From a virus, in the IMG/VR virus record IMGVR_UViG_3300021416_000008, positions 1-28,695 of that record: DNA of 28,695 bases. One strand, 5' to 3'. Below are positions 6,204 to 27,745 of the stretch, in pieces. The notes under the pieces are model-generated. The model had not been told where the DNA came from and searched no databases. It saw nothing but the letters and a program-made list of their open reading frames with translations. The position numbers and the translations under genes were made by a program. Numbering within the stretch: position 1 is the first letter of the stretch; each line of letters opens with the position of its first letter.

Positions 6204-6254
6204 TGTCTCAGTTTTCCGAGAAGTGAGACAGCTCGGCCGCTACCCTTGGCGGCA
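6204..6254 (+). promoter_or_regulatory. Late promoter 1: 27-bp dyad plus -10, upstream of gpW
   Basis: The dyad occupies 6204-6230, starting on the base after the Mor-family stop codon. Outer arms are TGTCTCA (6204-6210) and TGAGACA (6224-6230), and the inner half-sites TT-N-TC and GA-N-AA are also symmetric, so 22 of 27 positions are palindromic. After exactly 10 bp comes a -10-like hexamer, TACCCT (6241-6246). The gpW ATG begins 7 bp later at 6254, at or next to the predicted transcription start. No -35 box is evident; the dyad centre lies about 36 bp upstream of the start, where an activator could replace it. No Shine-Dalgarno precedes the ATG, so the mRNA would be leaderless. Confidence 0.75.
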
Positions 6255-6466
6255 TGGCCCTCTCACAATCTGACCTCGACGCGCTCGACTCCGCAATCGC
6301 CTCCGGCACGCTGACGGTGGAATTCGACGGGCGCAAACTCACCTACCAGACCACCGCCCAGTTGATCGCGGCACGCAACCACGTTGCGACCGTCGTCAAT
6401 GCCGCCTCGCAGAACCGCGGGCCGCGGGCCTTCCGTTTCAACTTCACTACGTCCAGGGGCGACTGA
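6254..6466 (+). CDS. Head-tail joining protein, gpW family
   Basis: 70 residues, close to lambda gpW (68). The opening is helical (SQSDLDALDSAIASGTLTVEF), followed by a beta pair (FDGRKLTYQTTAQLIAARNHV) and a basic, disordered end, which is the gpW pattern. gpW binds the portal and allows joining of head and tail. The gene lies just before the portal gene as in lambda. Its TGA overlaps the portal ATG by one base. The start has no ribosome-binding site and lies directly at late promoter 1. Confidence 0.85.
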   Translation: MALSQSDLDALDSAIASGTLTVEFDGRKLTYQTTAQLIAARNHVATVVNAASQNRGPRAFRFNFTTSRGD

Positions 6467-7938
6467 TGCCGAACGTTCTTGACCGGATCGTCGGCTGGGT
6501 CAGCCCCCACGCTGGCATCGCTCGGCACTTCGCCCGCCAGCAGCTGGCTCGCGCATACGAGGCGGCCAGCCCGCGCGACACATGGCGTCCACGGCGCGCC
6601 GGCGCAAGCGCGAACGCCGACCACCGCGCCGATGCGCGTACGCTACGCACGAAGGCCCGCGCCCTGGTGCAGAACGTTCCGTACATTCAAGCTGGGCTGG
6701 ACGGCCTGACTGCGGCCACTGTCGGCGCCGGCATCGTCCCGCGCGCGACCGGGCGAGACAAGGATGTCTTGAACAAGCTGTTCGCTGAATGGGCGAAGAA
6801 ATGCGATGCCGACGGGCGCTACGACTTTTACGGCTTGACCAAAGCGGCAGACACCGCAATGGAGCAGGACGGCGAGGTGCTGGTGCGCCTGCGCTGGCGG
6901 CGGGCGTCCGACAATCTGCCGGTACCACTGCAGCTCCAGCTGCTCGAAATTGACTGGCTCGACGATGCCAAATCGGGCGCCTACAACGGGAACACCATCA
7001 TCAACGGCATCGAGTACGACATGCTCGGTGCCGTGGCCGCGTATTGGCTGTTCAATCAGCACCCGGGAGAGGGCATTGCAGCACGGTCGCTGAAGAGCCA
7101 GCGTGTGTCAGCTGAGTTCATCGTCCACCTGTTCGCGCCGGCGCGCCCGGGGCAGGGCCGTGGCTTCACGCGCTTCGCCTCGGTGATCTCGCGCGTGCGC
7201 GACCTGCAGCTGTACGAGGACGCCGAGCTGGCACGAAAAAACCTGGAAACGCGCCTATCGGTGCTGGCCAGCGGCGACATGAGCCAAATGGAAAACCCGG
7301 CATCGCTGGGAGGCGCCGGCGAGCAAGGACAGGGCGCGCGCGACCTGGGCGACCTGGGCGGCGGTACTGTGGTCGGCATGCCTGCCGGGATGAACTTCAC
7401 AGTCGTCGAGCCGAAGGCTGCGCCCGGCTACGTCGAGTACGTCAAGTACCAGCTACACCTGATCGCCGCCGGCATCGGCGTGCCTTACGAGATGCTGACC
7501 GGCGACATGACCGGTGTGAACTTCAGCAGCGCGCGCGTGCGCCTGCTCGACTTCCGCCGCTCGGTGCAGCAGCTGCAGTGGCTGGTCCTGATCCCGAAGT
7601 TGCTTGAGCCGCTTTGGGGGGCATTCGTTGAGGCGGCCTACCTGGCGGGCAAGGTCAAGAGCCGAGACAAGTCGGTGGACTTCAGTCCGCCAAAGTGGGA
7701 CTACGTGAACCCCGAGCAGGATGTGAAAGCCGATTTGGCCGAGATCGGCGCTGGCCTTTCGACCATCAGTGAAAAGCTTCGTCAGCGCGGCTATGACCCT
7801 GACGTCGTGTTCGCCGAGTGGAAGTCCGATTTCGACAAACTGACCGCGGCCGGCATTCTCGACACGATGTTGTTCATGCAGCGCGGGAACATGCCAACCG
7901 AGCAATCCGCACCAGGAAAAGCAGCGAAACAGGATTGA
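6466..7938 (+). CDS. Portal protein (lambda gpB-like, Phage_portal_2)
   Basis: 490 residues forming the dodecameric portal through which DNA enters the head. Family features visible: the N-terminal basic region with RHFARQQLARAYEAA, a DARTLRTKARALVQNVPYIQAGLDG segment typical of lambda-type portals, EQDGEVLVRLRWRR near 130-143, IDWLDD, and a C-terminal MLTGDMTGVNFSSARVRLLDFRR stretch near 343-365. The size fits gpB-like portals without a long extension. It overlaps gpW by one base and ends 66 bp before the next ATG. Late promoter 2 lies in that gap. Confidence 0.93.
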   Translation: MPNVLDRIVGWVSPHAGIARHFARQQLARAYEAASPRDTWRPRRAGASANADHRADARTLRTKARALVQNVPYIQAGLDGLTAATVGAGIVPRATGRDKDVLNKLFAEWAKKCDADGRYDFYGLTKAADTAMEQDGEVLVRLRWRRASDNLPVPLQLQLLEIDWLDDAKSGAYNGNTIINGIEYDMLGAVAAYWLFNQHPGEGIAARSLKSQRVSAEFIVHLFAPARPGQGRGFTRFASVISRVRDLQLYEDAELARKNLETRLSVLASGDMSQMENPASLGGAGEQGQGARDLGDLGGGTVVGMPAGMNFTVVEPKAAPGYVEYVKYQLHLIAAGIGVPYEMLTGDMTGVNFSSARVRLLDFRRSVQQLQWLVLIPKLLEPLWGAFVEAAYLAGKVKSRDKSVDFSPPKWDYVNPEQDVKADLAEIGAGLSTISEKLRQRGYDPDVVFAEWKSDFDKLTAAGILDTMLFMQRGNMPTEQSAPGKAAKQD

Positions 7939-7955
7939 TTGTCGGCTGGAAAAGT

Positions 7956-8005
7956 TGTCTCAGTTTTCCGAGAATTGAGACAACGCAATCCGCACAATGG
8001 GTGCA
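7956..8005 (+). promoter_or_regulatory. Late promoter 2: 27-bp dyad plus -10, upstream of protease-capsid gene
   Basis: Second dyad copy at 7956-7982, differing from the first at one base (T instead of G at position 20). Both TGTCTCA and TGAGACA arms are intact. Exactly 10 bp downstream is CACAAT (7993-7998), and the ATG of the protease-capsid fusion lies 6 bp after that, at 8005. The predicted transcription start therefore falls on the start codon. No Shine-Dalgarno is present. This promoter could drive the whole block to 27677, since I see no other copy in that span. Confidence 0.75.
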
Positions 8006-10071
8006 TGACAACGCCAACCCATCCGCTCACTGCCAGCCGGTCCGCCAGCGATCCACGCACGATGCCCTCGGTAACGCGCGAGGCGACGCTGGTCCCGACC
8101 ACTTTCAACGAAGCAGACAACACCGTAGATGTCGTCTGGACGACCGGTTCGCGCGTGCGCCGATTTGACTGGTGGACCGAGACCACTTATGAGGAAGAAC
8201 TGGCGGTCACACCGGAAGCGGTCGACATGTCGCGCTTCGATGCTGGCACTGTCCAGGTGATCGACTCGCACCGTGTGCACGGCGGCGTTGCCGCCATCCT
8301 CGGCATCGCGATCCGGGGCAGCATCGAGAACGGCGAGGGCCGCGCCACGTTACGCCTGTCAACCCGGGCGGAGATGGCTGGCATCGTCGCCGACATCAAA
8401 GCCGGCATCATTCGCTCGATCAGCTTTGGTTACAACGTCACCAAGTACGAGATCACTCGCGCGATTGATCGTACCGACGGCGTCAATATGCCGCTCTACC
8501 GCGCGGTCAGCTGGCAGCCGTACGAAATCAGTTTTGTCACCGTGCCGGCCGACGCCGATGCGAGCACGCGCAGCCAGCCAGCGAGCGGCGTGCACTGCGA
8601 ATTTACTACCCGGGCGCCCGCCCAATTGTCCGTCCCACCATCCCAGGAAGATCCTATGACCACGACCACGTCGGGCGCCTCGACCCAAGCGCCTACCGAA
8701 GCAAACCGTTCCGGCGCTCCAGCCGCGCCGGCGCCGGCCCCAGCACCGGCCGCCACCACTGCGCCGGCAACGCCGCCGGCAGGTGACGACGCCGCAACCC
8801 GCGCCGCCGAGATCACCGAAATGTGCGTGCGCCACAACGTCAGCCAACTGGCCGCAGGCCTGATCCGCGGCGGCAACTCGGTCGACCAGGCCCGTCAGGC
8901 CGTACTCGATGAACTGGCGCGCGGCGATGTCGCCGGCGGCGGTCAACACAATGTGCGCATCCAGCTAGTCGGCGACGAAATGCAGGTGCGCATGGCCGGC
9001 GTTGAAGAAGCGATGATGCACCGCATCCATGCGGGTACCAAGCTGACCGACAACGGCCGCCAGTACCGTGGCATGAACCTGCTCGAGATCGGCCGCGACT
9101 TCCTGGAATCGCGCGGCATCCAGACCCGGGGCATGGATAAGATGCGCCTGGCCACCGAGATCCTGCACTACCGTTCGGGCGCGCACGGCACCAGCGATTT
9201 CGCGAACCTGTTTGCCAATGTGGCGAACAAGCGCATGCGCGCCGGCTACGAAGAAAGCGCAGGGACCTACACGCAGTGGGCACGCCGCGCGCCGAACGCG
9301 CCGGACTTCAAGAACATCAGCATCGTCCAGCTGTCGGGCGCGCCAGACCTGCTGCAGACCAATGAGCACGGCGAATTCAAGTACGGCACGATGAAGGACG
9401 CGGGCCTGACGTACGCCCTGGTGACCTACGGCCGCATGGTTGCGCTGACCCGCCAGGCGATCGTCAACGATGATCTGCGCGCCTTTGAGCGCTTGGTCTC
9501 CGCCTTCGGTGCAAGTTCGAGCCGCCTGGAAAACCGCTTGGTGTACAGCCAGCTCACCGCCAACCCGCTGATGGGTGACGGCGTCGCACTGTTCGACGCA
9601 GCGCACGGCAACCTCGGTGCCGGCGGTCCCTCGGCCTTGCAGCTGAGCTCGATGAAGGCCGCCCGCACGGCGATGCGCCTGCAAAAGGGCCTGCAAAACG
9701 AAGAGCTGAACCTGGCCCCGAACTTCCTCATCGTCCCGGCCTCGCTCGAGCAGGACGCCTACCAGCTGACCAGCTCGAACTACGTGCCGGCCAAGCAGAG
9801 CGACGTGAACGAATTCCGTGCTGGTGGCCGCACCTCGGTCGAGCCGATCGTCGAGCCGATCCTGGACGCATCGAGCGCGACTGCGTGGTACATGGCCAGC
9901 AACAACAGCCAGATCGACACTGTCGAGTACTGCTACCTGGACGGCGCCGAAGGGCCGGTCATCGAGACCCAGCAGGGCTTCGAGATCGATGGCGTCACTT
10001 TCAAGTGCCGCCTGGACTTCGCGGCCAAGGCAGTCGACCACCGCGGCCTGTACAAAGGCGCCGGCGCGTAA
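8005..10071 (+). CDS. Prohead protease / major capsid protein fusion
   Basis: 688 residues from the ATG at 8005. A TTG at 7939 directly after the portal stop, with AGGA four bases upstream, would extend it by 22 residues but would place promoter 2 inside the gene. Residues about 20-205 form an HK97/U35-type prohead protease: DSHRVHGG (His89 and His92) and RSISFGY with Ser140 as likely nucleophile. Residues 218-262 are a Pro/Ala/Thr-rich linker. About 262-400 is helical and could act as a scaffold. The rest is a capsid domain resembling Mu gpT-type major head proteins (GRMVALTRQAIVNDDLRAFERL near 475; FLIVPASLEQDAYQLT near 574). Protease-capsid fusions are known in such phages. The protein would assemble the shell and cleave the linker or scaffold during maturation. 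A strong internal start lies at 8656. Confidence 0.9.
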   Translation: MTTPTHPLTASRSASDPRTMPSVTREATLVPTTFNEADNTVDVVWTTGSRVRRFDWWTETTYEEELAVTPEAVDMSRFDAGTVQVIDSHRVHGGVAAILGIAIRGSIENGEGRATLRLSTRAEMAGIVADIKAGIIRSISFGYNVTKYEITRAIDRTDGVNMPLYRAVSWQPYEISFVTVPADADASTRSQPASGVHCEFTTRAPAQLSVPPSQEDPMTTTTSGASTQAPTEANRSGAPAAPAPAPAPAATTAPATPPAGDDAATRAAEITEMCVRHNVSQLAAGLIRGGNSVDQARQAVLDELARGDVAGGGQHNVRIQLVGDEMQVRMAGVEEAMMHRIHAGTKLTDNGRQYRGMNLLEIGRDFLESRGIQTRGMDKMRLATEILHYRSGAHGTSDFANLFANVANKRMRAGYEESAGTYTQWARRAPNAPDFKNISIVQLSGAPDLLQTNEHGEFKYGTMKDAGLTYALVTYGRMVALTRQAIVNDDLRAFERLVSAFGASSSRLENRLVYSQLTANPLMGDGVALFDAAHGNLGAGGPSALQLSSMKAARTAMRLQKGLQNEELNLAPNFLIVPASLEQDAYQLTSSNYVPAKQSDVNEFRAGGRTSVEPIVEPILDASSATAWYMASNNSQIDTVEYCYLDGAEGPVIETQQGFEIDGVTFKCRLDFAAKAVDHRGLYKGAGA
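8645..8658 (+). promoter_or_regulatory. Internal ribosome-binding site and in-frame start for capsid-only product
   Basis: AGGAAG (8645-8650) stands 5 bp before an in-frame ATG (8656), at the junction of the protease domain and the Pro/Ala linker. Initiation here would give a 471-residue scaffold-capsid protein without protease. It is a much better ribosome-binding site than that of the full-length start, which has none. This recalls the nested scaffold start within lambda gene C. The use of this start is inferred. Confidence 0.6.
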
Positions 10072-10107
10072 GCGGCCGTCATCGCAACCATTCAATAGGG
10101 AAACAAC

Positions 10108-10440
10108 ATGCGCAACAAAATTCAGAAGGGCCGCGTCATCACCGTCTTCGCTCCATACGCCGTCAGCGGCGGTATGGGTGTCCTGGTCGGCGCACTGTTC
10201 GGCATTGCTGCCGGCGATGCTGCGAATGGCGCGCCGGTCGAGATCGACCGCGAAGGCGTGTTCGATATTGCTGCGGTCACCGCTGACGCAGCGGCCCAGG
10301 GCGCCAAAGTGTACTGGGACAACGCCGCTCGCAAGATCACCACGACCGCAGCCGGCAATACCTTGGTCGGCGCCCTGACCGCAGCCAAGACCGGGGCGGA
10401 AAGCGTCGCGCGTGTCTGCCTCGACGGTGTGATTCGCTAA
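10108..10440 (+). CDS. Capsid decoration/cement protein, DUF2190 family
   Basis: 110 residues. The fold-typical sequence (RVITVFAPYAVSGGMGVLVGALFGIAAGDAANGAPVEIDREGVFDI) is that of DUF2190 proteins, which bind the outside of capsids as cement. It is rich in Gly, Ala and Val, with no cysteine in the core and no membrane helix of convincing length. It follows the capsid gene directly, after a 36-bp gap, and has a clear AGGGA ribosome-binding site. It fills the place of lambda gpD, although gpD lies before the capsid gene in lambda. Confidence 0.85.
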   Translation: MRNKIQKGRVITVFAPYAVSGGMGVLVGALFGIAAGDAANGAPVEIDREGVFDIAAVTADAAAQGAKVYWDNAARKITTTAAGNTLVGALTAAKTGAESVARVCLDGVIR

Positions 10441-10447
10441 GCCGGAC

Positions 10448-10744
10448 ATGAACTTCGCTGCCATCGAAGCCGTTACCAACGCCGCCATCCTGCGGCACCT
10501 GGCGAACGCTCAGGTGCGCATCGCTGGCACGGTCGTGCCTGGAATTTTCCAGCGTCCGTCCGTTGTCGTTGGCGCCGGCCCAGGGGCAGCGGACACCAGT
10601 CCGACCGTAAAAGTTGCCACCGCTGGCTTGCCTGCGAACCTCGTTGACCAGCTGATCGACATTGACGGTGTGCCCTACGTGGTCATCTTGCCCGCTCCGG
10701 ATGGCACGGGCATGACGGTGCTCACCGTCGAGTGCGCCCAATGA
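10448..10744 (+). CDS. Head-tail joining protein (gpFII / PF13856-like)
   Basis: 98 residues. A helical N-terminus (FAAIEAVTNAAILRHLANAQV) precedes a beta-rich domain (VPGIFQRPSVVV, LVDQLIDIDGVPYVVILPAPDG, MTVLTVECA). This matches the Gifsy-2/FII group of head-tail connector proteins that bind the filled head before tail attachment. It starts 7 bp after the decoration gene stop and overlaps the next gene as ATGA. There is a weak ribosome-binding site, so translation probably depends on coupling. Confidence 0.7.
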   Translation: MNFAAIEAVTNAAILRHLANAQVRIAGTVVPGIFQRPSVVVGAGPGAADTSPTVKVATAGLPANLVDQLIDIDGVPYVVILPAPDGTGMTVLTVECAQ

Positions 10745-11178
10745 CGACGGCGTTTTCGGCCATCGTGGCAGCCGTGATCGGCCGGCTTTCGGAAGAGCCT
10801 CCTGTATGCGATGCGATCTACCGCGCCCGGGCGAACGCGATCCCGGAAACGCTGGATCGCGCAATCAGCGTGCAGTTTGACCAGTCGCTGCCGAATCGAG
10901 GCGTGATGGATGGCTCGCCGATCGACTGGAGTTCAAGGGTCACCGTCGAGTGCTTCGCCCGCAGCGTCATCGAGACGGGGGACCTCGCCGTCGACCCACT
11001 GTTGGAAGCGGTATTCGCCCGTCTGGCGGCAGATGCAACGCTCGGTGGCGTAGTGGGCGACCTGGCGATCGCTGGCGTCGAAGCTGAGTACACGTCCGAC
11101 GGAAAGAAAACCGGATGGGTCCGCATCACATACATCGCGGAACACCGGACCGACAACCTCACCCTGGAACAAGTATGA
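10741..11178 (+). CDS. Probable tail terminator/completion protein (gpU-like position)
   Basis: 145 residues, starting at the ATG that overlaps the previous stop. The alternating helix and beta pattern (FSAIVAAVIGRLSEEPPVCDAIYRAR; SSRVTVECFAR; GWVRITYIAEHRT) is that of small tail terminator or HK97 gp10-type proteins, which cap the tail tube at the head-proximal end. The gene order FII-like, this gene, then tail tube supports it. I cannot distinguish terminator from a generic minor tail protein by sequence alone. It overlaps the next small gene as ATGA. Confidence 0.6.
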   Translation: MTTAFSAIVAAVIGRLSEEPPVCDAIYRARANAIPETLDRAISVQFDQSLPNRGVMDGSPIDWSSRVTVECFARSVIETGDLAVDPLLEAVFARLAADATLGGVVGDLAIAGVEAEYTSDGKKTGWVRITYIAEHRTDNLTLEQV

Positions 11179-11324
11179 AAACAAAGAATGAAGAACAAGC
11201 ACCGGCGAGCGAACGACCGATCCCGACGCCGCCCAGCGGCGGTAGCTGGAGCTTCGACCGCGTGAAGTGGGATTGGGTCTCGAAAGAGCCCGCCGAACAA
11301 CCAGCAGAAACCACCAAGGAATAA
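11175..11324 (+). CDS. Small conserved protein between tail terminator and tail tube
   Basis: 49 residues, charged and Pro-rich (PIPTPPSGGSWSF, then DRVKWDWVSKEPAEQ). Its start overlaps the previous stop (ATGA at 11175-11178), and it ends 3 bp before the tail tube start. The position in a coupled operon and the clean reading frame argue for a real gene. No fold or function is recognised. Similar short Pro-rich proteins occur at this place in related phages of Burkholderiales, to my recollection. Confidence 0.6.
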   Translation: MKTKNEEQAPASERPIPTPPSGGSWSFDRVKWDWVSKEPAEQPAETTKE

Positions 11325-11327
11325 GCC

Positions 11328-12299
11328 ATGGGCGCAAATACCCGTCGCATTCGCAACACCGTCATCCTCGTCAAATTGGCGACCAACGCTGGCGAGGATG
11401 CAGCACCGACCGCTGCCGCCAATGCGGTGCTGGTCTCGGAAATGTCGATCACTCCGCTCGAACTGGAAAAGATCGCCAACCCTGCCATGAAAGGCTTCTT
11501 CGGCGCGAGCGCCGACCTGATGGGCGCTGCCAGCGTGAAGATCGAGATCACCGTCGCATTGGCGGGCTCTGGTGCCGCAGCTACGCCGCCGGCCTGGGGC
11601 AAGCTGAACATGGCCTGTGCCATGGCCGAGGGTGAGCTGACCGTGCCCGATCGTGTCGAATACACGCCGATCTCCACTGGCCTGAAGGATGCCACGGTCT
11701 ATTACTACGACGACGGCGTCCTGCACAAAGCGCTGGGCTCGATGGGCAACGTCTCCCTGTCGGCGAAGAAGGGCGGCACGCCGTCTCTGAAGTATGAATT
11801 CACCGGCGTGGCCGGCGCCATCACCGCAACGCCGAACGAGGTTGCCACCCTGACGGCATGGAAAAAGCCGGTGGCGATGATCAAGGAAAACGTGGTCGAC
11901 ATGACCTTCGGCGGCGTGTACGCCGCAGGGGCAATTACTGGTGGCGCCGTTTATCCAAGCACGGGTCTCGACGTCAACCTGGGCAACAAGGTCGAGTTCC
12001 ATTCGAACCTGAGCCTGAACGAGGCCGACATCACCGACCGCGAAGTCACGGGCTCGACCGAGCTGCAGCTAACGGCCGCGCAGGAAGTCGCCATGTTGGC
12101 AAAGGTCCGCGCCGGCGAAGAGATCAGCGTCGCCCTCAAGATCGGCCTCATCACTGGAAACAGCATCCTGATCTACGGCCCGTCGGTGCAACTGTCGAAT
12201 CCGAAGAAGGTCGATGTCCAGGGAATCCGCTACGTCGGCTTCGACCTGAAGTTCATCCCAGTCGTCGGCAACGACGAGATCCGCCTGGTCTGCCTGTAA
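11328..12299 (+). CDS. Major tail tube protein (Phage_tube_2-like)
   Basis: 323 residues. It is beta-rich with a repeated pattern of Gly, Thr and Val and no catalytic motif: VLVSEMSITPLELEKIANPAMKGFFGAS near the N-terminus, DATVYYYDDGVLHKALGSMGNVSLSAKKGG in the middle, and a C-terminal AGEEISVALKIGLITGNSILIYGPSVQLSNPKK. This fits siphovirus tail tube proteins that stack as hexamers around the tape measure. AAGGA lies 6 bp before the ATG. A strong hairpin follows the stop codon and may separate its high expression from that of the next gene. Confidence 0.8.
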   Translation: MGANTRRIRNTVILVKLATNAGEDAAPTAAANAVLVSEMSITPLELEKIANPAMKGFFGASADLMGAASVKIEITVALAGSGAAATPPAWGKLNMACAMAEGELTVPDRVEYTPISTGLKDATVYYYDDGVLHKALGSMGNVSLSAKKGGTPSLKYEFTGVAGAITATPNEVATLTAWKKPVAMIKENVVDMTFGGVYAAGAITGGAVYPSTGLDVNLGNKVEFHSNLSLNEADITDREVTGSTELQLTAAQEVAMLAKVRAGEEISVALKIGLITGNSILIYGPSVQLSNPKKVDVQGIRYVGFDLKFIPVVGNDEIRLVCL

Positions 12300-12305
12300 G
12301 AGAAG

Positions 12306-12331
12306 GGGTGGCGCAGGCGACTGCACCACCT
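12306..12331 (+). promoter_or_regulatory. Intercistronic hairpin with GCGA tetraloop after the tail tube gene
   Basis: Ten possible pairs between 12306-12316 and 12321-12331, interrupted by one C-A mismatch (12312/12325), close on the GNRA tetraloop GCGA (12317-12320). It lies 6 bp after the tail tube stop and 35 bp before the next start. No T-tract follows, so it is more likely an mRNA stabiliser or partial attenuator than a full terminator. Confidence 0.5.
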
Positions 12332-12366
12332 GGTCAGCATCCCCTCACATAACGAAACGAGAACGC

Positions 12367-12726
12367 ATGAGCAAGTACAAACTGGCAGTCGCGAACAAGG
12401 TCCGCGTCCCGATGATTTTCGAGATCCAGGACGGTGAAAAACTCCGTCGTTTCAACTTCTCGCTTACCTGCGAGCGCCTGACGGTCGAGGAATTCCAGGA
12501 CAGCATCAAGAACGGCGACGGCATCCCGACGAACGAGAAGATCCGCGAAACGATGATCCGTATCACCGAAGGCTGGGTCAATCAGACCTTCGTGACCGAC
12601 GACGCTGGCCAGCCCGCGCCGTGCGACCAGGAAGCGAAAGAAGTCATGTTCGGCGCCGCCAACGTCCTGGACATCGCCGTGGCCTCCTACATGAAGGAAA
12701 GCGGCGCAAAAGCAAAAAACTCGTAG
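12367..12726 (+). CDS. Tail assembly chaperone G (zero-frame product)
   Basis: 119 residues. The beta N-terminus (KYKLAVANKVRVPMIFEIQDGEKLRRFNFSLTCERL) and helical C-terminus (EVMFGAANVLDIAVASYMKES) are those of siphovirus G-type chaperones. The place between tail tube and tape measure gene is diagnostic. Near its end the gene carries the slippery heptamer A AAA AAC, after which only Ser and the stop follow. Most ribosomes make this protein. A minority shift -1 and add the T domain. Both products bind the tape measure during tail assembly and are absent from the virion in lambda. Confidence 0.85.
   Translation: MSKYKLAVANKVRVPMIFEIQDGEKLRRFNFSLTCERLTVEEFQDSIKNGDGIPTNEKIRETMIRITEGWVNQTFVTDDAGQPAPCDQEAKEVMFGAANVLDIAVASYMKESGAKAKNS
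12714..12720 (+). other. Programmed -1 frameshift site A AAA AAC
   Basis: The heptamer is in the correct zero-frame register (codons AAA at 12715-12717 and AAC at 12718-12720). After slipping, both tRNAs read AAA and translation continues CTC GTA GAG into the T frame, which stays open to 13082. A possible stimulating stem is GGCTGGCGGG at 12743-12752 with CCCGCCGGCC at 12779-12788 (10 pairs including one G-U). It starts 22 bases after the heptamer, farther than the usual 5-9. The short palindrome GCCGCGCGGC lies closer. Confidence 0.88.
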
Positions 12727-13082
12727 AGGCCGCGCGGCTGTTGGCTGGCGGGCAGTTGCGCTTCCCGACAGCAGACGACCCGCCGGCCGCTGCGCGCCTC
12801 GAGCAGGACGCGGCCGGATTCGGCTTCTATGTGGTTGGTGATGATGTACCGGTCGAGGATGAGTTTTATCTTTGGCCGGAAAACTGCGAAATCTGGGGGC
12901 TTTGGCTGTCGGTTCAAACGCAGTGGTTCACAGATAACGGCATCCGCACCCGTCTGGACTACAGCGGAGTGAAGGAGTGCATGAGTCACCAGACGATCCG
13001 GAAAAAGGACCGGCCGGTGTACTTCGCAACACTGCAGGCGATGGAATTTGCCGCTCTCGACGAGTGGGCCAAACAACGGTAG
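12720..13082 (+). CDS. Tail assembly chaperone T domain, made as GT by -1 frameshift (DUF1799-like)
   Basis: The product is a join of 12367-12720 and 12720-13082, about 238 residues. The T part has 120 residues (KLVEAARLLAGGQL, then FYLWPENCEIWGLWLSVQTQW and RLDYSGVKECM), resembling DUF1799 tail chaperone extensions. No start codon with a ribosome-binding site lies at its head; the first internal ATG is at 12981. The frameshift is therefore its only credible route. In lambda, GT recruits the tape measure and tube subunits. The tape measure gene follows 15 bp downstream, as expected. Confidence 0.82.
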   Translation, partial: LVEAARLLAGGQLRFPTADDPPAAARLEQDAAGFGFYVVGDDVPVEDEFYLWPENCEIWGLWLSVQTQWFTDNGIRTRLDYSGVKECMSHQTIRKKDRPVYFATLQAMEFAALDEWAKQR

Positions 13083-13097
13083 GCAACTTCGAGAAAT

Positions 13098-18155: not shown

Positions 18156-18187
18156 CAAACAATATTCAACATGAGAAGAAGGCCAGC

Positions 18188-19627: not shown

Positions 19628-21117
19628 TGGGAGTGATTCGATTAACCAGCACGGGCAAGCTACGGCTATCGGGCGGGAAGGTTCGCCTCACCGCAAACGA
19701 TCCGGCCCCGGTCATTCCTGGCGCCGCGGCTACCAGCCTGACCGTTAGCGATTACTTGGCCGACCGGATTTTCCAGCGCGTCGGCACGAGCAAGGCAGTA
19801 CCTGTCACCGGAACCAGCAATGGCGACGCCGCGCAGGTTCGCGCGGTCAATATGGACGGCACGCCGGCGACTGCATGGGAAACCATGCCCGTCACCGGAG
19901 GCGCGTACAGCGGCCTGCTGACCGTACCGCAAGGCGGCTTCTACAAACTGCAAGCGCGCGATGCTGTTAACACCGCACTGATCGCCAATGGCACGAACAA
20001 GTTTGCCGTCGGCGTCCTGGTCGGCATGATCGGGCAATCGAACATGGTCCGCCTGTCGGAGCTGCACGGCGGTTACCCGCTCGTCGACTTGAAGACGCGC
20101 CGCTTTGCTAATGGCGCATGGTCGTTTGTCGGCAATTACAACCTGTCGGAACAGTACCCGCCGAACACGACCGTCAACGTCTACGGCGCCAACTACCAGT
20201 TCCCGTCACCGAACGGCGACGGCATCACGTATTTCGTGAACTACCTGCGCGCAGCCCTGGGCGTCCCTGTCGGGACGTTCGAATATGCGGTCAGCGGTTC
20301 GCCGCTCTCTGGCTGGGTTCCCGGGGGGCAGCAGTACAACACGTTCACGTCCGCGATAACGGCGTCAGGAGGGGATTGCGAGGCTGCGATCTTCCTTCAG
20401 GGAGAGCAGGACGCGGTGCTTGGCACCAGCGGCGCGGCATACCAGGCAGGCGTGCAAAGCCTGCTCGACGGGGTGCGCAACCTTGTCGGCCGCGACAGCA
20501 CGAACTTCCATTTCGGCGTCGTCCTGGTCGGTCCTGGCGCTGGCTTCGCTCCGGCTGGCCGCCTGGGTGCTATTCGCAAAGCACAGCTTGACTTCGTGGC
20601 AGCAAACACCGGCGCGTTTGTATGCGGCATCGCGACTGATGCAGATCTGGCGGGCGACTCAATCCACTTCAACACGGAAAGCCAGATCCGCCAGGGCTAC
20701 CGCTACGCGCTCGGTATGGCAAACCGGCTCGGCGCCCTGCCATACGGCGCGCAGGGTCCGCGCATCACCGGAGCGACCCGCTCGGGCGTGACAGTGACCG
20801 TGGCAATCGCGCAGAACGGCGGCACGCAGCTGCTCGACGGCGCGGGCGGCAACGGTTTCGCGCTGACGGGCTTCCGCGTCTTCAATAACGGGGCACCGGT
20901 CACGATCAGCAGCACGGCAATTTCCGGGAACTCGGTCGTGCTGACGCTCGCAAGCGCACCAGGTGGGGCGGTGACGCTGGATTACGCGATGGCTGATGCA
21001 CCGTTCGGCGGCACCTTTGTGCCCGCCGCATCGCTGTACGACAACCGCACCGTGCCGGGTGATTCGCTCGGCTTGCCGCTGCAACCGTGCGCCGCAATCA
21101 CCGTGACGGGGAGCTGA
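19627..21117 (+). CDS. Tail-associated SGNH / sialate O-acetylesterase-like hydrolase
   Basis: 496 residues from the ATG overlapping the previous stop. Residues 1-30 (RLTSTGKLRLSGGKVRLTA) look like a structural attachment segment. The catalytic domain has the SGNH signature: GQSNM with nucleophile Ser138, QGEQD at 258-262, and DSIHF with Asp344 and His347. This is the set of the SASA/carbohydrate-esterase group, which removes acetyl groups from sugars. The C-terminal 130 residues are beta-rich (TGATRSGVTVTVAIAQNGG onward). Lying among tail-tip genes, it probably deacetylates host surface polysaccharide (O-antigen or capsule) during adsorption. The substrate is unknown. All catalytic residues are present, so it is probably active. 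Confidence 0.8.
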   Translation: MGVIRLTSTGKLRLSGGKVRLTANDPAPVIPGAAATSLTVSDYLADRIFQRVGTSKAVPVTGTSNGDAAQVRAVNMDGTPATAWETMPVTGGAYSGLLTVPQGGFYKLQARDAVNTALIANGTNKFAVGVLVGMIGQSNMVRLSELHGGYPLVDLKTRRFANGAWSFVGNYNLSEQYPPNTTVNVYGANYQFPSPNGDGITYFVNYLRAALGVPVGTFEYAVSGSPLSGWVPGGQQYNTFTSAITASGGDCEAAIFLQGEQDAVLGTSGAAYQAGVQSLLDGVRNLVGRDSTNFHFGVVLVGPGAGFAPAGRLGAIRKAQLDFVAANTGAFVCGIATDADLAGDSIHFNTESQIRQGYRYALGMANRLGALPYGAQGPRITGATRSGVTVTVAIAQNGGTQLLDGAGGNGFALTGFRVFNNGAPVTISSTAISGNSVVLTLASAPGGAVTLDYAMADAPFGGTFVPAASLYDNRTVPGDSLGLPLQPCAAITVTGS

Positions 21118-21118
21118 T

Positions 21119-21778
21119 ATGCAAGGATTTTCTCCTAACGCCGGGATGCCAAACGCGTGGGTCGCACCTTCGGGCGGGGGCGTTGTCCCTCAGCCTGACG
21201 GAACGCCTCCTACCTTCACGGGCACGCTCACGCACACGAAAACGTCGTCATCGATCACGGTTGACTGGTCGGGCGCCGCCAGCGGCGATAACGTTGCGGT
21301 AGCACGCCGTGAATACCGAATCGGCGGCAGCGGTCCATACGCGCCGGCCAGCTCGGCGGAGGAGACCAGCAAGCGGCACACGTTCCCGAGCCTGGCGTCG
21401 AGCACGCCCTACAAGATCGAGGTGCGATGCGTCGACACCAGCGAAAACGTCTCGATGCCGCTCACGATTGTCGTCACGACCAGCGCCGCGCCGGCGCCAG
21501 GCGGAGACGGCAGCAACTACATCCGCGGCAAACTGGCGACGCGTGCCGGCGTCCCACATTCAAGCCTCGCCGTTCTGGACTGGTCGTTGTTCTCGCAATC
21601 GTCGGTGAGCAACTTAGGTTCGCCCGTTGATCAGGGAATGCACACGATGTCAGCCGGCTCTGCCGATTTCGAAATCGCAGTGTTGGCCGTGGAAGTTCCA
21701 GCAGGATGGTACTGGCTGGTGATGTCCGACGCTGACGGCACGACCGCGGTAGCTGTCCGCGTACTGGTGGGTCCATGA
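21119..21778 (+). CDS. Fn3-domain tail-tip protein
   Basis: 219 residues. Residues about 30-125 form an Fn3-like domain (TFTGTLTHTKTSSSITVDWSGAASGDNV; TPYKIEVRCVDTSENVS). Residues about 140-219 are a separate beta-rich domain (VLDWSLFSQSSVSNLG, PAGWYWLVMSDADG). It begins one base after the esterase stop and its stop overlaps the next ATG (ATGA at 21775), so it is translated in a coupled chain. No enzyme motif is present. It probably links or decorates the esterase or hub at the tail tip. Confidence 0.6.
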   Translation: MQGFSPNAGMPNAWVAPSGGGVVPQPDGTPPTFTGTLTHTKTSSSITVDWSGAASGDNVAVARREYRIGGSGPYAPASSAEETSKRHTFPSLASSTPYKIEVRCVDTSENVSMPLTIVVTTSAAPAPGGDGSNYIRGKLATRAGVPHSSLAVLDWSLFSQSSVSNLGSPVDQGMHTMSAGSADFEIAVLAVEVPAGWYWLVMSDADGTTAVAVRVLVGP

Positions 21779-23346
21779 CCGCGATTGTTTTCGATACTAC
21801 GCATTCGCCAGACGGCAGCCTCGTATTCGACGCGCCGACGGTCGCCGAGCAGCAGCCGGCGGCGCGCACCATCAGCGATGCCGACTTCGCGGCCTGGCTG
21901 CGCAGTGACAGCGCGATCACGAATATCCTGGTGGAGACTTGGGCGCTCGTCGACGGCGTGCGCACGCCTTTCCACTTCTCGACCAACGGCTATACCACCG
22001 CAGGCACGAACAACCCGGTGTTCTACGCGCCCCTCATCGCGGCCAGCATCCCGTTCACCGAGGAGCTGTCGCTGAAGTCAGCCGCGACTCTGTCGGCCGG
22101 CGACTTCGAGATCGGCAACACGAACGGCGAGAACGAACATTACGCCGGCTACATCTGGGCCGACGAGATAACGGCCTTGGTAGGCGATCAGACTTGGGCG
22201 CGAGCCGACTATCGCGAGATCTTCGTCGGCCACACCGCGGGCCTGGTGCGCAAGGGCACGCGTGCCTTCGCCCTGCGACTGCGCGACATGATGGAAGGGC
22301 TGAACTATCCGCTCAGCGAGCGCAAGTTCGGCGGCGCCGGCACGAACGCCGACCGGCCGATCCCACTGACCTTCGGCGAGCCTTTCAACCCGGCAGGTGA
22401 GTGGAGTGACTTCAACGCTCGCGAGCGGCAGTGGCATGACGGCCCGATCGAAGGCATTCCCGAGACGCGCGCCAACGGGCTGCCGATCACCGAACAGGTG
22501 ATCGTGTCCGAGAGCACCGGCAAAGCGCAGCTGACCGTGGACAACGCGAGCGCCGCCATCACAGCCTGGGTGCAGGGGGACAAGTTCGGCGGCGTGTTCC
22601 GCAAGACGATCGCGCCCCTCGTCCAGCGCTTCATCACCGGCTACGGCAAGTACTCCGATCGCTACTCTTTGGCCAACATCGATGCTGCGAATTTTGCTGC
22701 CTTCGATGCCGCAAATCAGCAGGAAGTCGGGCTGCACGTCCGTGAAAGTCTGAACGTCATCGACGCGTGCGACATGCTGGCCAGCAGCATCGGTGCCCAG
22801 CTCGCACCGTCTCTGAACGGCAAGCTGCAGCTGATCCAGATCGCGTTGCCCGCCGCCGGGACCGCGATTGATATCCGTGCCGAGCACATGGTCGGCGGAA
22901 CCTTGCGTCATGTCGAGCACATCGATCCGGTGGCAGCGGTCAACTTGGGGTATTGCAAAAACTGGACGCCTCAACCTGGCCTGCAGAGCAATCTGCCAGC
23001 TGAGCACCTGGCTTTGCTCGAGAAGGAATGGCCGCTGACCGTGACCCGAACCAGCCCGGACGTGATTCGTGACTACAAGCTTCCTGGCACGGCGACGATG
23101 CGCGCGACGATGCTGCTGCAGGGTGCCGACGCTGCCGCTGAAGCCGACCGCGAGATCGCACTGTGGGGGACAGGCCGGGATATCTACGAGTTCGACGGCG
23201 TGCCTGACCTGCTCCTGCTTGAGAAAGGCGCGCGCCTCATCGTCCACCACCAGCAGGACGGCATGATGGCCGGCGTCGAAGCCCAGGTCCTGTCGGTTAA
23301 ACGCGACTGGTGGACCCGCAAAGTTACTGTGAGATTCCTGAAATGA
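21775..23346 (+). CDS. Probable tail hub/baseplate protein
   Basis: 523 residues. It begins with a beta segment (TAIVFDTTHSPDGSLVFDAP), then a large domain with a conserved-looking core (EEFSL-type ELSLKSAATLSAGDFEIGN, YREIFVGHTAGLVRKGTRAFALRLRDMMEGL) and ends with LIVHHQQDGMMAGVEAQVLSVKRDWWTRKVTVRFL. The end and size are like siphovirus hub proteins that form the ring between tube and central fibre, and the next gene is the J-like fibre. I recognise no exact family. Overlaps of four bases at both ends place it in one translational unit. Confidence 0.5.
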   Translation: MTAIVFDTTHSPDGSLVFDAPTVAEQQPAARTISDADFAAWLRSDSAITNILVETWALVDGVRTPFHFSTNGYTTAGTNNPVFYAPLIAASIPFTEELSLKSAATLSAGDFEIGNTNGENEHYAGYIWADEITALVGDQTWARADYREIFVGHTAGLVRKGTRAFALRLRDMMEGLNYPLSERKFGGAGTNADRPIPLTFGEPFNPAGEWSDFNARERQWHDGPIEGIPETRANGLPITEQVIVSESTGKAQLTVDNASAAITAWVQGDKFGGVFRKTIAPLVQRFITGYGKYSDRYSLANIDAANFAAFDAANQQEVGLHVRESLNVIDACDMLASSIGAQLAPSLNGKLQLIQIALPAAGTAIDIRAEHMVGGTLRHVEHIDPVAAVNLGYCKNWTPQPGLQSNLPAEHLALLEKEWPLTVTRTSPDVIRDYKLPGTATMRATMLLQGADAAAEADREIALWGTGRDIYEFDGVPDLLLLEKGARLIVHHQQDGMMAGVEAQVLSVKRDWWTRKVTVRFLK

Positions 23347-26303
23347 TACAAGCCATCAACGACATCGACCGGTTGCTGCAGGCAGCGCCGTCCCGCTACG
23401 GCGAAGCGTACGCCCGCGACCTGCAGCTCAGTGCCAGCGCGCGCAGCTTCGACGTTGCACTCGACGCCACCGTCGCCCCGTCGGCGATTGTCTTCATTGC
23501 CACCCGCGTAGGCTTCACCGGCGGCACCGTCGAGTTCACGACCAGCAACGGCACGCCGCTCGCGGTCGACGGCGACGTGGCCACCCTGACACCCGCAGCC
23601 CTGATGGGTTCTGGATGCGAGGTCGTGGCCACCGTTACCTACCAGGGCGATACGCACGTCGGCCGCCAGTCGGTGACCAAGTTGCTTGCATTCGATTCGT
23701 CTGTGCCGCCAGCGCCGACAGGCTTGGCCGCCCAGGGCGCACTGGCCAGCATCAACCTGAGCTGGGATCCGACCAACGACACAAACATCGGCGCGGTCGA
23801 GATCTGGCGCGCGCTGACCAATGACCTCTCCGCGGCGGCGCCGGTCGGTGAGACCGCCGGCCTGGCGCGCACCTACCCGGACGTGATCGGCGCCGGCGGC
23901 CGCTTCTATTACTGGATCCGCTACATCTCGAAAGCGAACGTGCTGGGCCCGTTCAATGCCCAGGCAGGGACGCTCGGTACCACCGGCACAGGAGCAGAAC
24001 ACCTGCTCGATCTGCTGAAGGACCAGATCAGCGAGTCCCAGCTGCTGGCGTCTCTGCGCGACCGGATCAATCTGGCCGTCGCTGGATCCGAGGTTGCCGG
24101 CGATGTCGCGGCCGCGCTGCAGGCAGAGACCGACGCCCGGATCGCGGCGATCGACAAGGAGATCGCCGACCGACTGGCAGCGTTGCGCGATGAGGCGGCC
24201 GCCCGGGAAGCGTACGTCCAGGACTACACCTATAACAAAGTCGAAACTGACCAAGCCCTTGCTATCCAGGCGCAAGCGATCGCTGCTGCGTTCACGTCAT
24301 ATACCGACCAGGTTGCACAGCAGGTGGTCACCGTGGCCGCCGCTGACGTCCGGAGTTACGGCTACAGTAGAGCGGACGCTGAGGCGGCGGAAGCGGCGCA
24401 GTCGAATGCCATCACCACTTCGTACAAGAGCTATGCCGACGGCCGGAAAGACGAGGCCGTCAGCACCGCAGCGGCCGATGTCCGCAACTATGCTTACAGC
24501 AAGACAGACACCAACGTGGCGCTGTCCTCGCTGGCCACGACCTTGCGCGGCGAGATGGCCAGCAACGGGGGCGTGTCCGAGGCGTACGTTCAGAACTATG
24601 CGTACAGCAAGGCCGAGGTGACCGCCTCGATCGCGGGCCAGAGCACTGTGCTGACGACCGCGTACAAGCAATACGCTGATGACCGCAAGGCCGAAGCGAT
24701 CAGCACCGCAGCTGCTGATGTGCGCAGTTACGCGTACAGCAAGTCCGACACGAACGGCGCCATCGCGTCGAGTGCCTCGGATCTGCGTGCGGAGTTCTCG
24801 AACAATAACGGTGCGACCGCGGCTTGGGTCCAGGAATACGCGTACAGCAAGGCACAGACAAATACGGCCATTGCTGACCAAACCTCTACGCTACGGACGA
24901 CGGTCGGCGACCACACGACAAGTCTCCAAACGCACGGCAACTCGATCGACGGGCTTTCTGCACAATATACCGTCAAGATCGACAACAACGGTTACGTGAC
25001 CGGCTACGGTTTGGCAAGCAGCTACGTAAATGGTGTTCCAACCTCGGCATTCATCATCAATGCCGCCCGGTTCGCGGTCGTGGCGCCTGGCCTGGCGCCC
25101 AAGGTCATGTTCGTTGTTGGGCAAATCGCAGGGCAAACCGGCGTAGGCGTAAGCGGCGACCTAGTCGTTGACGACACTATCTCCGCGCGCCACCTGAAAG
25201 CGGAATCGGTCTCCGCGCGCCACCTGTCGGTCATGGGCAGCAGCGATAACATCATTCGCGATCCGCAGTTTCGAGATCTGGCGTTTTGGGGGCGCCAGGG
25301 TTGCGCCGTTGGCGAATGGTGGCGCCATGCAGATAACACCCCCTGGAAGGGCGGGGCATCGCTGTACCTCGGTCAAGGGCCGGGCTACATGCGCGAAACC
25401 GACACGCCGTATTTTAATGTCGAGCCGGGCGCAACTTATAGATTGGAATATCAGGTAAGCGTGCCGTTTGGGTTCAATGGGCAAGCGTCTGTGTTTTGGC
25501 TACTGCCTGCGTCGGCATGGTGGCCTATGTCGAGCGCAGTCAACCGGCGCGGGCAATGGGGCGATGGCCTCACCGTCGAATTTAATTCCAACGATGCTGG
25601 CCAGCTATTGACGTTTTCGACGTTGCTGACGGTCCCGAACGATAGCCGCAACTCGCGCGCCCTGATCCGTATCCGCGACCAGTACAGCTCGGGACAGCTC
25701 GAAATCGGAGCCATGAGCATTACCCGCGTGGTGGACGCGACGCTGATCGGGCCTGGTAGCGTGCAAACGAAACACCTGTCTATTTCGCAAGGCGGCGATA
25801 TTAGCAGCGGCCAGTGGGGATTCGACCAGGGCGTTGGATTTTGGCTCGAGGGCGCCGGCAACGGCCACGGTGCGCGCTTTAGTCTCGGCAACTCCAGCGG
25901 CGCGAAAATTATTTGCGACCCCCAGAACGGCATTTTCAAGCTGATAAATCCGGAAATTCAAGGGCAGACCGTCGCACCATTTACCGCGTCGATCAGCGGC
26001 AGCCTTTACGGCGCCGTCGGCAATGGGCGGCAAGGTTACGGCAGCCTGACCGTCAATGCGGCCGGCAATTTTCAGGGGCCGCTGTCCTACCTCTGGAGCG
26101 TGACCTTCGAAACCGCGAACGGCACGACCGCCGACGTTGGCGTCGCAGGTAGCGCAACTGGGTCGACCGCAAGTTTCGTCGGCAACGCCACGAACGAACG
26201 CGTCTATCTTTGGGCAAGCGTGCAAATCATCGACGCCGCTGGCCGCGTGGCGACGGCCGAGCGGTTCCAACAACTCAACCATGGAAATTTCGTCGCACAA
26301 TGA
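23343..26303 (+). CDS. Central tail fibre / tip attachment protein (J-like, DUF1983-type region)
   Basis: 986 residues from the ATG that overlaps the hub stop. An Fn3 domain (PPAPTGLAAQGALASINLSWDP) begins near residue 120. Residues about 215-295 are helical. Residues 295-535 carry six YAYSK-type repeats spaced 44, 44, 36, 44 and 36 residues, probably a trimeric fibre shaft. Residues about 540-620 (SIDGLSAQYTVKIDNNGYVTG; FIINAARFAVVAPG) resemble the DUF1983 region of gpJ-type proteins. The last 350 residues look like a carbohydrate-binding tip (SDNIIRDPQFRDLAFWG onward). From about 25240 the DNA becomes AT-richer; 25441-25500 is 50% GC by my count, against clearly higher values upstream, as expected for an exchanged receptor-binding module. 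Confidence 0.75.
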   Translation: MIQAINDIDRLLQAAPSRYGEAYARDLQLSASARSFDVALDATVAPSAIVFIATRVGFTGGTVEFTTSNGTPLAVDGDVATLTPAALMGSGCEVVATVTYQGDTHVGRQSVTKLLAFDSSVPPAPTGLAAQGALASINLSWDPTNDTNIGAVEIWRALTNDLSAAAPVGETAGLARTYPDVIGAGGRFYYWIRYISKANVLGPFNAQAGTLGTTGTGAEHLLDLLKDQISESQLLASLRDRINLAVAGSEVAGDVAAALQAETDARIAAIDKEIADRLAALRDEAAAREAYVQDYTYNKVETDQALAIQAQAIAAAFTSYTDQVAQQVVTVAAADVRSYGYSRADAEAAEAAQSNAITTSYKSYADGRKDEAVSTAAADVRNYAYSKTDTNVALSSLATTLRGEMASNGGVSEAYVQNYAYSKAEVTASIAGQSTVLTTAYKQYADDRKAEAISTAAADVRSYAYSKSDTNGAIASSASDLRAEFSNNNGATAAWVQEYAYSKAQTNTAIADQTSTLRTTVGDHTTSLQTHGNSIDGLSAQYTVKIDNNGYVTGYGLASSYVNGVPTSAFIINAARFAVVAPGLAPKVMFVVGQIAGQTGVGVSGDLVVDDTISARHLKAESVSARHLSVMGSSDNIIRDPQFRDLAFWGRQGCAVGEWWRHADNTPWKGGASLYLGQGPGYMRETDTPYFNVEPGATYRLEYQVSVPFGFNGQASVFWLLPASAWWPMSSAVNRRGQWGDGLTVEFNSNDAGQLLTFSTLLTVPNDSRNSRALIRIRDQYSSGQLEIGAMSITRVVDATLIGPGSVQTKHLSISQGGDISSGQWGFDQGVGFWLEGAGNGHGARFSLGNSSGAKIICDPQNGIFKLINPEIQGQTVAPFTASISGSLYGAVGNGRQGYGSLTVNAAGNFQGPLSYLWSVTFETANGTTADVGVAGSATGSTASFVGNATNERVYLWASVQIIDAAGRVATAERFQQLNHGNFVAQ
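24225..24851 (+). repeat. In-frame fibre repeats, alternating 44- and 36-residue units
   Basis: YxYSK-like motifs start at residues 295, 339, 383, 419, 463 and 499. Units of 44 contain SYK-x-YAD-x-R and STAAADVR. Units of 36 contain LR-x-E, a short N/G loop and a VQ near the end. The pair 44+36 repeats as a 240-bp period (for example 24489 and 24729). Confidence 0.75.
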
Positions 26304-26854
26304 CCAGCTACGCTGTATCGAACCTCCTGGGCCGGGTATTCGGTTTTCTCGACTCCGCCACTATGCCTGTCATGGCCAACCCGGATTTCATCGCGCACGC
26401 CCTTATCGAGCGGGTCGAAGCCTGGCCGACCGCGCAGTCGCCGACCGCCGAGCTATGGATCGAAAACGGCGTACTGCGCTGGCACGACCCTGCGACACTC
26501 GCCGACGCGAAGGCTAACGCCTGGACAGCAGCTAAGACCGAGCGCGACAAGGCCGAGGCGGCGCCGTTCGAGTTCGAGGGGGGCATGTACGACCCGAATA
26601 AGGAGAACGTCTCAGGTGCCGCGCTGGCCGCCTTACTCGCGCAGCTTGGTGGCGTCGAAGTCTCGCGCACCTGGACCCTCGCTAACAACTCACGCCGCGT
26701 GCTTACGGGCTCCCAGATCATCGCCATGGGCCTGGCCCTCACGGCACGCGTAGATGCCATACACGAACGCGGTCGCACCCTTCGCGACCTGATCGACAAC
26801 TCCGCTACGCCTGCCGAGGCGTACGGCTACACCTGGAATTCTCTCGATGCCTAA
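26300..26854 (+). CDS. DUF4376-type tail protein (fibre-associated)
   Basis: 184 residues, with an ATGA overlap to the fibre gene. The C-terminal 110 residues fit DUF4376 (AAKTERDKAEAAPFEFEGGMYDP, then VLTGSQIIAMGLALTARVDAIHERGRTLRDLIDNS). Such proteins lie next to tail fibre genes and some resemble fibre assembly factors. The N-terminal part (VEAWPTAQSPTAELWIENGVLRWHDP) is a small beta region. It may help assemble or attach the fibre. It overlaps the next gene by 8 bp. Confidence 0.65.
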   Translation: MTSYAVSNLLGRVFGFLDSATMPVMANPDFIAHALIERVEAWPTAQSPTAELWIENGVLRWHDPATLADAKANAWTAAKTERDKAEAAPFEFEGGMYDPNKENVSGAALAALLAQLGGVEVSRTWTLANNSRRVLTGSQIIAMGLALTARVDAIHERGRTLRDLIDNSATPAEAYGYTWNSLDA

Positions 26855-27677
26855 CCTGATCATCATGAACAAAAACGTGGCGTCGCGTGCGGTGCTGTCC
26901 GCGGCGCCAGTCGCACCTGGGATGTCGATCGCGGCGATCCTGAACGATACTAAGTCGCACGTCTGCCGTGCAGTCGGTACCGAGATTGAGGTGATCATGA
27001 CCTGGGACACTGCCGAGCGCATCGGCGGGGTGCACTTCCCATGGTGTAACGGTTCGCCGTCGACGACGATCGAAGTGCTCGGTTATTCCGATGAGGGCGG
27101 CGCGAGCAAGGTGCTTGACACTGGTGTGCGGCTTGCATGCCCGGCTCGGCCACGCGAGCCCCTGCCGCCCTGGACGCCCGTCAGCGCGTCAAGCGCGTAC
27201 GCCTGGGGAGGCGGCGCCCATGCCTTCACCTGGTTCGACAATGTCGCGGTGAAACGCCTGGTCATTCGTCTCAAGGATCCTGGCAGCCTGCAGGGCTACC
27301 TCGAGCTGTCGCGGGTGTTCGTGGGCGAGGCATTTACTCCCGACGAGAACGCATCGTACGACCCCGCTCGCACGCCCGTTAGCACGAGCACCGCGTTCTA
27401 CACCGACGCCGGCGATCGACGATCCGTAAAGGGCACCAAGCGCTGGCAGCTGTCGATTGATCTGGGGAGGATGACCGAGCGCGATCGTTCGTTCATCTGC
27501 GACATGCAGGTGACAAATGACATTGATGGTCCAAGCATCATTGACCTCTACCCTGGCGACCCGTCGCACGAGCGCTCGCGCGACCACCGGATGTACGGCG
27601 GCCTGAAACAGACAGCCGCGATGCGCCGACCGAACTTTGCGCGGCACGCTACCACGCTGGAATGGGAAAGCATGTAG
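26847..27677 (+). CDS. Virion tip protein of unknown function
   Basis: 276 residues. It is beta-rich with many aromatic residues (GGVHFPWCNGSPSTTIEVLGYSDEGG; AYAWGGGAHAFTWFDNVAVKRLVIRLKDPG), a pattern like discoidin-type carbohydrate-binding folds in the first 170 residues. A later part (RSVKGTKRWQLSIDLGRMTERDRSF) resembles structural tail proteins. It has no signal peptide or membrane segment. It is the last gene of the tail chain, starts inside the previous gene, and is followed by late promoter 3. A role in adsorption is inferred from place and composition only. Confidence 0.5.
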   Translation: MPNLIIMNKNVASRAVLSAAPVAPGMSIAAILNDTKSHVCRAVGTEIEVIMTWDTAERIGGVHFPWCNGSPSTTIEVLGYSDEGGASKVLDTGVRLACPARPREPLPPWTPVSASSAYAWGGGAHAFTWFDNVAVKRLVIRLKDPGSLQGYLELSRVFVGEAFTPDENASYDPARTPVSTSTAFYTDAGDRRSVKGTKRWQLSIDLGRMTERDRSFICDMQVTNDIDGPSIIDLYPGDPSHERSRDHRMYGGLKQTAAMRRPNFARHATTLEWESM

Positions 27678-27695
27678 GACACGCGCTCGCATTAT

Positions 27696-27745
27696 TGTCT
27701 CAATTTTCCGAGAATTGAGACGGGGCAATTGTTAACTTGGGGCCA
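27696..27745 (+). promoter_or_regulatory. Late promoter 3: 27-bp dyad plus -10, upstream of lysis genes
   Basis: Third dyad copy at 27696-27722. It differs from copy 2 at two bases (A for G at position 8; G for A at the last base). The -10-like TAACTT (27733-27738) again starts exactly 10 bp after the dyad. The transcription start would be near 27745. Unlike promoters 1 and 2, an untranslated leader of about 80 bases precedes the first gene, the holin. Confidence 0.75.

Follow-up and report, generated by a model that had tools for sequence, protein, structure and literature searches.

We analysed positions 1 to 28,695 of the virus record IMGVR_UViG_3300021416_000008 from IMG/VR (this whole stretch is called the window), in which three 27-bp dyads stand before blocks of late genes and a gene for a protein of the Mor family lies directly beside the first dyad. 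We consider it very probable that the Mor-family protein binds these dyads, recruits sigma70 RNA polymerase (RNAP) and co-activates the three late blocks, and that the first two of the resulting transcripts are leaderless. Comparative sequence evidence makes such a Mor-type activator switch on three dyad promoters a well-supported reading; it comes from the sites themselves, their fixed spacing to a -10 element, their conservation, their co-occurrence with the Mor gene and, above all, the covariation between the protein’s recognition helix and the arms of the dyad.

In the mechanism we propose, the 119-amino-acid protein encoded at 5844-6203 would bind the 27-bp dyad through a C-terminal helix-turn-helix, placing one recognition helix on each outer arm (TGTCTCA and TGAGACA). 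The bound protein would recruit host sigma70 RNAP to three promoters that have a -10 element at a fixed spacing and lack a -35 element, and the gpW/portal genes, the protease-capsid and virion block and the lysis cassette would be switched on together. The first two transcripts are expected to begin at or within 1-2 bases of the ATG, so that these mRNAs would be leaderless and translated without a Shine-Dalgarno (SD) sequence; the lysis transcript would carry a leader. From the patterns described below we infer that the protein binds and activates, where transcription starts, that translation is leaderless and that the timing is late.

Three dyads and a Mor-family gene

The central elements of the putative switch are the following.

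5844 to 6203, plus strand: Mor-family late activator gene (predicted activator), 119 amino acids, C-terminal helix-turn-helix, recognition helix GRATVYR
6204 to 6230, plus strand: dyad 1, predicted activator operator at the gpW/portal promoter, centre near -36
7956 to 7982, plus strand: dyad 2, predicted operator at the protease-capsid/virion promoter
27696 to 27722, plus strand: dyad 3, predicted operator at the lysis promoter; in relatives the corresponding site lies upstream of holin-type genes

The original prediction, made from the window alone, held that three near-identical 27-bp dyads are the only copies there. An arm-pattern scan allowing up to three mismatches agrees, matching only 6204-6230, 7956-7982 and 27696-27722, and a 26-base core is matched in full at all three sites. 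The arms taken alone are a modest test, with 5 of 100 shuffles also reaching three matches. Conservation of the full core is far beyond chance, because the core recurs exactly in 58 IMG/VR stretches and a reversed control pattern has no match in 18 whole host genomes of 2.6-8.4 Mb.

The same prediction placed the end of a Mor-family gene on the base before dyad 1, and both the coordinates and the profile match bear this out: the protein matches PF08765 with 37.2 bits against a curated cut-off of 24.9 (E 3.3e-9). It also matches PHROG 532 (late transcriptional activator) and PHROG 836, and in BLASTP it finds Mu Mor (5.6e-7) and Mu C (1.1e-6), with which it shares an FNGRN motif. The best fold matches of an AlphaFold2 model include Mu Mor (1rr7/9l0y) and Mu C (9l0x); the helix-turn-helix of the model superposes on the Mu structures (Z 7.1), and the domain arrangement and orientation do not. 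In the Protein Data Bank listing, the cryo-EM initiation complexes contain four copies of C (9l0x) and four of Mor (9l0y), which by analogy makes a tetramer on the long operator of this phage possible.

The dyad recurs together with the Mor gene

If the Mor-family protein reads the dyad, the two should travel together among relatives, and they do so tightly. All 23 of the dyad-bearing records that were searched encode exactly one Mor homolog (42-87% identical). Among 294 whole genomes of the Massilia family, six carry the dyad pattern and the same six have a Mor match below 1e-39, the next best Mor-like match in the 294 being 3e-10. A relaxed pattern, in which only the outer arms were fixed, also retrieved distant Mor phages (~37-56% identical), most of which have the dyad ~24 nt before an ATG. 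Close dyad matches in host genomes fall on prophage-bearing contigs and nowhere else, except for one phage-like short contig in genome G025; the hosts of this prophage group are Burkholderiales. The cultured-phage and plasmid records searched yielded only a 27%-identical Mu-like Mor, and none of them carries the system.

Nine dyad-bearing loci lack a Mor gene (L080, L083, L094, L110, L138, L144, L274, L279 and L029); they neither count against nor support the co-occurrence, because most are short fragments or have the dyad near a contig end. Many viral contigs without a Mor gene contain matches to the arms only. These were set aside as chance or coding matches lacking the core and the -10, among them one that recurs in other phages, in a conserved stretch that is apparently coding.

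The recognition helix covaries with the dyad arms

The strongest evidence for the switch is covariation between protein and DNA. Across non-redundant Mor proteins we compared residue X of the recognition helix, [SGN][RK]X[TS]VYR, with the arms of the dyad. Where X is A, the arms are GTCTCA/TGAGAC in 53 lineages; the single exception is one further lineage (L266), in which one arm is changed. Where X is T, the arms are GT[CT]CCA/TGGnAC or, in L181, GTCCCG/TGGAAC and GTTTCA/TGGGAC (8/8). Thus A pairs with T at arm base 5, and T pairs with C. Taken as whole helices, [SG]R[AS][TS]VYR goes with GTCTCA/TGAGAC in nearly all cases and GRTTVYR with GT[CT]CCA/TGGnAC. Rarer variants behave in the same manner: two phages with SRRTVYR have GTGACA/TG[TG]CAC at both of their sites, and a phage with NRATVYR has GTCGC[AG]/TGCGAC at both of its own, such that in the R and N variants the arms are altered in both half-sites and at every detected site of the phage. 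For the A/T contrast, Fisher’s test gives p ~3e-9 if the rows are taken as independent, which they are not.

Two blind tests gave concordant pairings. In a DNA scan for GTCCCA-type arms, wherever a retrieved locus contained a Mor gene, that gene had GRTT or GRST. In a fresh genome with SRAT, GTCTCA arms were present at both sites; another fresh genome, with SRST, has a mixed GTTTCA/TGGAAC dyad. The pattern GTGACA...TGTCAC at 27-bp spacing had no match in IMG/VR, the true sites of that type being 28 bp long or ending in TGGCAC. On the basis of these sequence comparisons, the covariation nearly identifies the Mor-family protein as the one that binds.

It also bears on whether another phage or host protein reads the dyad, with the Mor gene a hitchhiker in the cluster. 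Such a reader would suit the asymmetric dyad core, and further regulators could exist outside the window. Yet single-residue changes in the Mor recognition helix go along with arm changes from lineage to lineage, whole genomes show complete co-occurrence, and in hosts the close dyad matches keep to prophage contigs, apart from the short contig in G025; we regard a different reader as highly improbable.

Promoters with an invariant -10 and no -35

Each dyad in the window is followed by a -10-like hexamer.

6241 to 6246, plus strand: -10 hexamer TACCCT of the gpW/portal promoter, predicted +1 at 6253/6254
7993 to 7998, plus strand: -10 hexamer CACAAT of the protease-capsid promoter, predicted +1 at 8005
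27733 to 27738, plus strand: -10 hexamer TAACTT of the lysis promoter, predicted +1 near 27745
7946 to 7955, plus strand: A-rich tract just upstream of dyad 2, a possible contact for the C-terminal domain of the RNAP alpha subunit (alpha-CTD)

These hexamers begin exactly 10 bp after each dyad, as had been noticed originally, and no TTGACA-like hexamer is found at 15-19 bp from the -10 at the window sites. To generalize, we used 74 non-redundant sites, chosen by the dyad alone, in loci with a Mor gene or in fragments of such phages (six Mor-less loci were excluded). Downstream of the dyad the only invariant positions are A at +12 and T at +16, each in 74/74 sites; in sequence terms these are the -11A and -7T of a sigma70 -10 element. 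In 28-bp operators (L183, L185) the distance from the right arm to the -10 is kept and only the core is lengthened, which suggests that the right arm sets the position of RNAP. Upstream, there is a conserved A-tract at -5 to -2 of the dyad, with A at -4 in 66/74 sites. This A-tract or AT-rich stretch recalls the partial UP element of Mu Pm, a site for alpha-CTD (PMC4390567).

These features have implications for the sign of regulation. A Mor-family protein on the dyad would cover -49 to -23, an overlap with the promoter spacer that is typical of repressors, and evidence of binding does not by itself say whether late genes are turned on or are kept off in the lysogen. However, the promoters lack a -35 and nevertheless hold A-11 and T-7 at a fixed distance from the dyad in every site, as expected of activator-dependent promoters; the characterised Mor/C members activate (PMC4390567, PMC4461284); and the gene adjoins the terminase genes, outside any immunity region. 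We therefore judge repression very unlikely. The fixed distance to the -10 also speaks against the dyad being an RNA element, a terminator or hairpin in RNA that runs on into the late genes. In example folds the RNA can form a long stem with G-U pairs, but it has no U-run, and the arms follow a protein recognition helix in their variation, with the same change at every site of a given phage, which leaves an RNA element scarcely credible. Activation by the Mor-family protein at DNA operators is the reading we retain.

Predicted leaderless starts

The late genes on which the putative promoters act are listed here.

6254 to 6466, plus strand: gpW-type head-tail adaptor (PHROG 2545, alignment from residue 1), without an SD, predicted leaderless at 6254
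6466 to 7938, plus strand: portal of the lambda family (PF05136, 1.1e-90)
8005 to 10071, plus strand: protease-major capsid fusion (PF04586 and PF25209, PHROG 4523), without an SD, predicted leaderless at 8005
27828 to 28060, plus strand: holin (PF16080, PHROG 20), leadered rather than leaderless
28058 to 28695, plus strand: GH19 endolysin (PF00182, PHROG 181), reaching the end of the window
6236 to 6253, plus strand: inverted repeat GCCGC...GCGGC around the -10, abutting the gpW ATG

An ATG lies at +23 to +27 after the dyad, at or near the predicted +1, in 54/74 sites, and in the window the ATGs of gpW (6254) and of protease-capsid (8005) are on or one base from it. The gpW start is fixed by its family profile, which aligns from residue 1. 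The SD duplex energy of leaderless-type starts averages -1.21, weaker than the -2.18 of random 17-mers drawn from the window, and values of about -4 to -8 are seen for many of the window's other virion and lysis genes. We thus predict from sequence that the gpW and capsid transcripts are leaderless. The lysis site is leadered, as is gpW in some distant lineages. A codon-position test of the capsid N-terminus is not used as evidence; it is biased because its pairs were picked by amino-acid identity.

Leaderless-type sites also contain an inverted repeat centred on the -10. Their longest stems average 4.50, against 3.43 +/- 0.12 after permutation of the flanks between sites, and stems of 6 or more occur in 15/54 of them, against a permutation mean of 2.45 and a maximum of 8. 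The stem sequences diverge between phages while complementarity is kept (L039, L191, L130, L065, L275 and others). Leadered sites are without this enrichment (mean stem 2.9). Folding lends no support to sequestration of the start codon by the repeat, giving a probability of 0.49 that the AUG is unpaired versus 0.516 +/- 0.024 in arm-shuffled controls. It is doubtful that there is a two-layer gate, in which the activator would fix the start at the ATG, making virion mRNAs leaderless, and the -10 repeat, present only in read-through RNA, would keep ribosomes off the capsid genes; if there were, only activator-made transcripts would be translated.

Layout of the proposed regulon

Annotation of the window yields a GpA terminase, a lambda-family portal, a gpW-type adaptor, a protease-capsid fusion, head decoration, a tape measure, a holin and a GH19 endolysin. 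This fits the lambda-type phage that had been proposed, and the flanking genes agree that the dyads head the gpW/portal, protease-capsid and lysis blocks. Most near-complete relatives have dyads at the same three places. In 16 records of 28-45 kb, 12 contain exactly three matched sites and 4 contain two, all on the Mor strand, and in five host genomes the genes after the third site belong to the lysis cassette and encode holin-type or small membrane proteins. Together with the co-occurrence, the covariation and the invariant -10, these data support the proposal that the three dyads form one late regulon under the Mor-family protein. It was further proposed that the activator replaces Q-type antitermination. 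Neither Q-family antiterminator profile (PF06530, PF03589) was found in the 16 records, with positive controls, although these records may be incomplete; replacement is consistent with this result, and fragments cannot prove absence.

The activator gene is usually followed directly by its own first target. Sometimes the dyad lies inside the last codons of the Mor gene (L143, L042, L172, L176, L180), where it adds an SQFSEK-like C-terminal tail to the activator, that is, a translated operator. The distance from Mor to gpW ranges from 0 to 2.2 kb in relatives, and the second dyad is 1.5 to 7.0 kb after Mor (for example in L193, L195 and L231). Cargo genes between Mor, gpW and protease seem to have been inserted in relatives, and each dyad stays with its own gene. 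In the window itself, a primase-like gene (58-1758) is found upstream of the terminase genes, which places replication and packaging genes ahead of the activator and in its orientation; and 8005-10071 is a single open reading frame of 688 amino acids in which the prohead protease is fused to the major capsid protein.

Comparison with Mu and lambda

The switch had been described as Mu-type, a term that suits its protein family and regulatory logic; it does not suit the operator length, half-site spacing and position, which differ from those of Mu Pm (PMC4390567), or the predicted leaderless mRNAs. Shared with Mu Mor and Pm are a PF08765 homolog with FNGRN and the 1rr7/9l0y fold, a dyad at a promoter that has a -10 and lacks a -35, and a promoter that directly follows the activator gene, as Pm follows mor. 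The element bound by Mor in Mu is 16 bp long (-51 to -36), with its centre at -43.5 and protection from -56 to -33 (PMC4390567, PMC4287176), and the Pm operator has two 5-bp repeats (PMC4390567); here the operator is 27-28 bp, has its arm centres about 20 bp apart and is centred at about -36. Mu is, moreover, a transposable myophage in which Pm is a single promoter whose transcript has a leader, in contrast to three promoters in a lambda-like phage.

Several observations weigh against our interpretation. The dyad centre (-36) and the half-site spacing (about 18-20 bp) are unlike those of Mu Pm, and with this geometry the mode of RNAP contact may differ. The structure model is only moderate (predicted local distance difference test score 72.8). 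X = S occurs with either type of arm. The best tree contains 8 independent contrasts and sampled pairings are nearly all concordant, but the protein tree is poorly resolved and its supported branches force only one independent switch; tree-based independence is not significant because the protein is short.

With Mu C and its promoters (Plys, PI, PP and Pmom), the system has in common one activator for several late promoters, including lysis and head/tail blocks, and a promoter after the activator gene, as Plys follows C. The Mu C operator has another sequence and position, in Mu a cascade runs from Mor to C, against one Mor-family protein found here, and the gpW and capsid mRNAs of this phage are, unlike those of Mu C late promoters, predicted to be leaderless. 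Lambda Q governs late genes of this class in phages that have a lambda-type terminase, portal and gpW; here control would instead be exerted at three separate promoters that look activator-dependent. The lambda cI mRNA made from PRM is leaderless, with its ATG at +1 and no SD, and the messages predicted to be leaderless here differ in being those of major virion genes under a late activator.

Implications

The cultured phages in the collection searched include no close match to this prophage group. Relative to Mu Mor/C control, what appears new from these comparisons is the different operator geometry, the lambda-type phage and the predicted leaderless virion mRNAs. Late control in the Mor/C mode would thus extend beyond transposable Mu-like phages to a wide group of lambda-type Burkholderiales prophages, in which leaderless mRNAs are predicted for major virion genes. 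The pairing of one helix residue with one arm base pair may represent a natural protein-DNA recognition code, and one that is directly testable.

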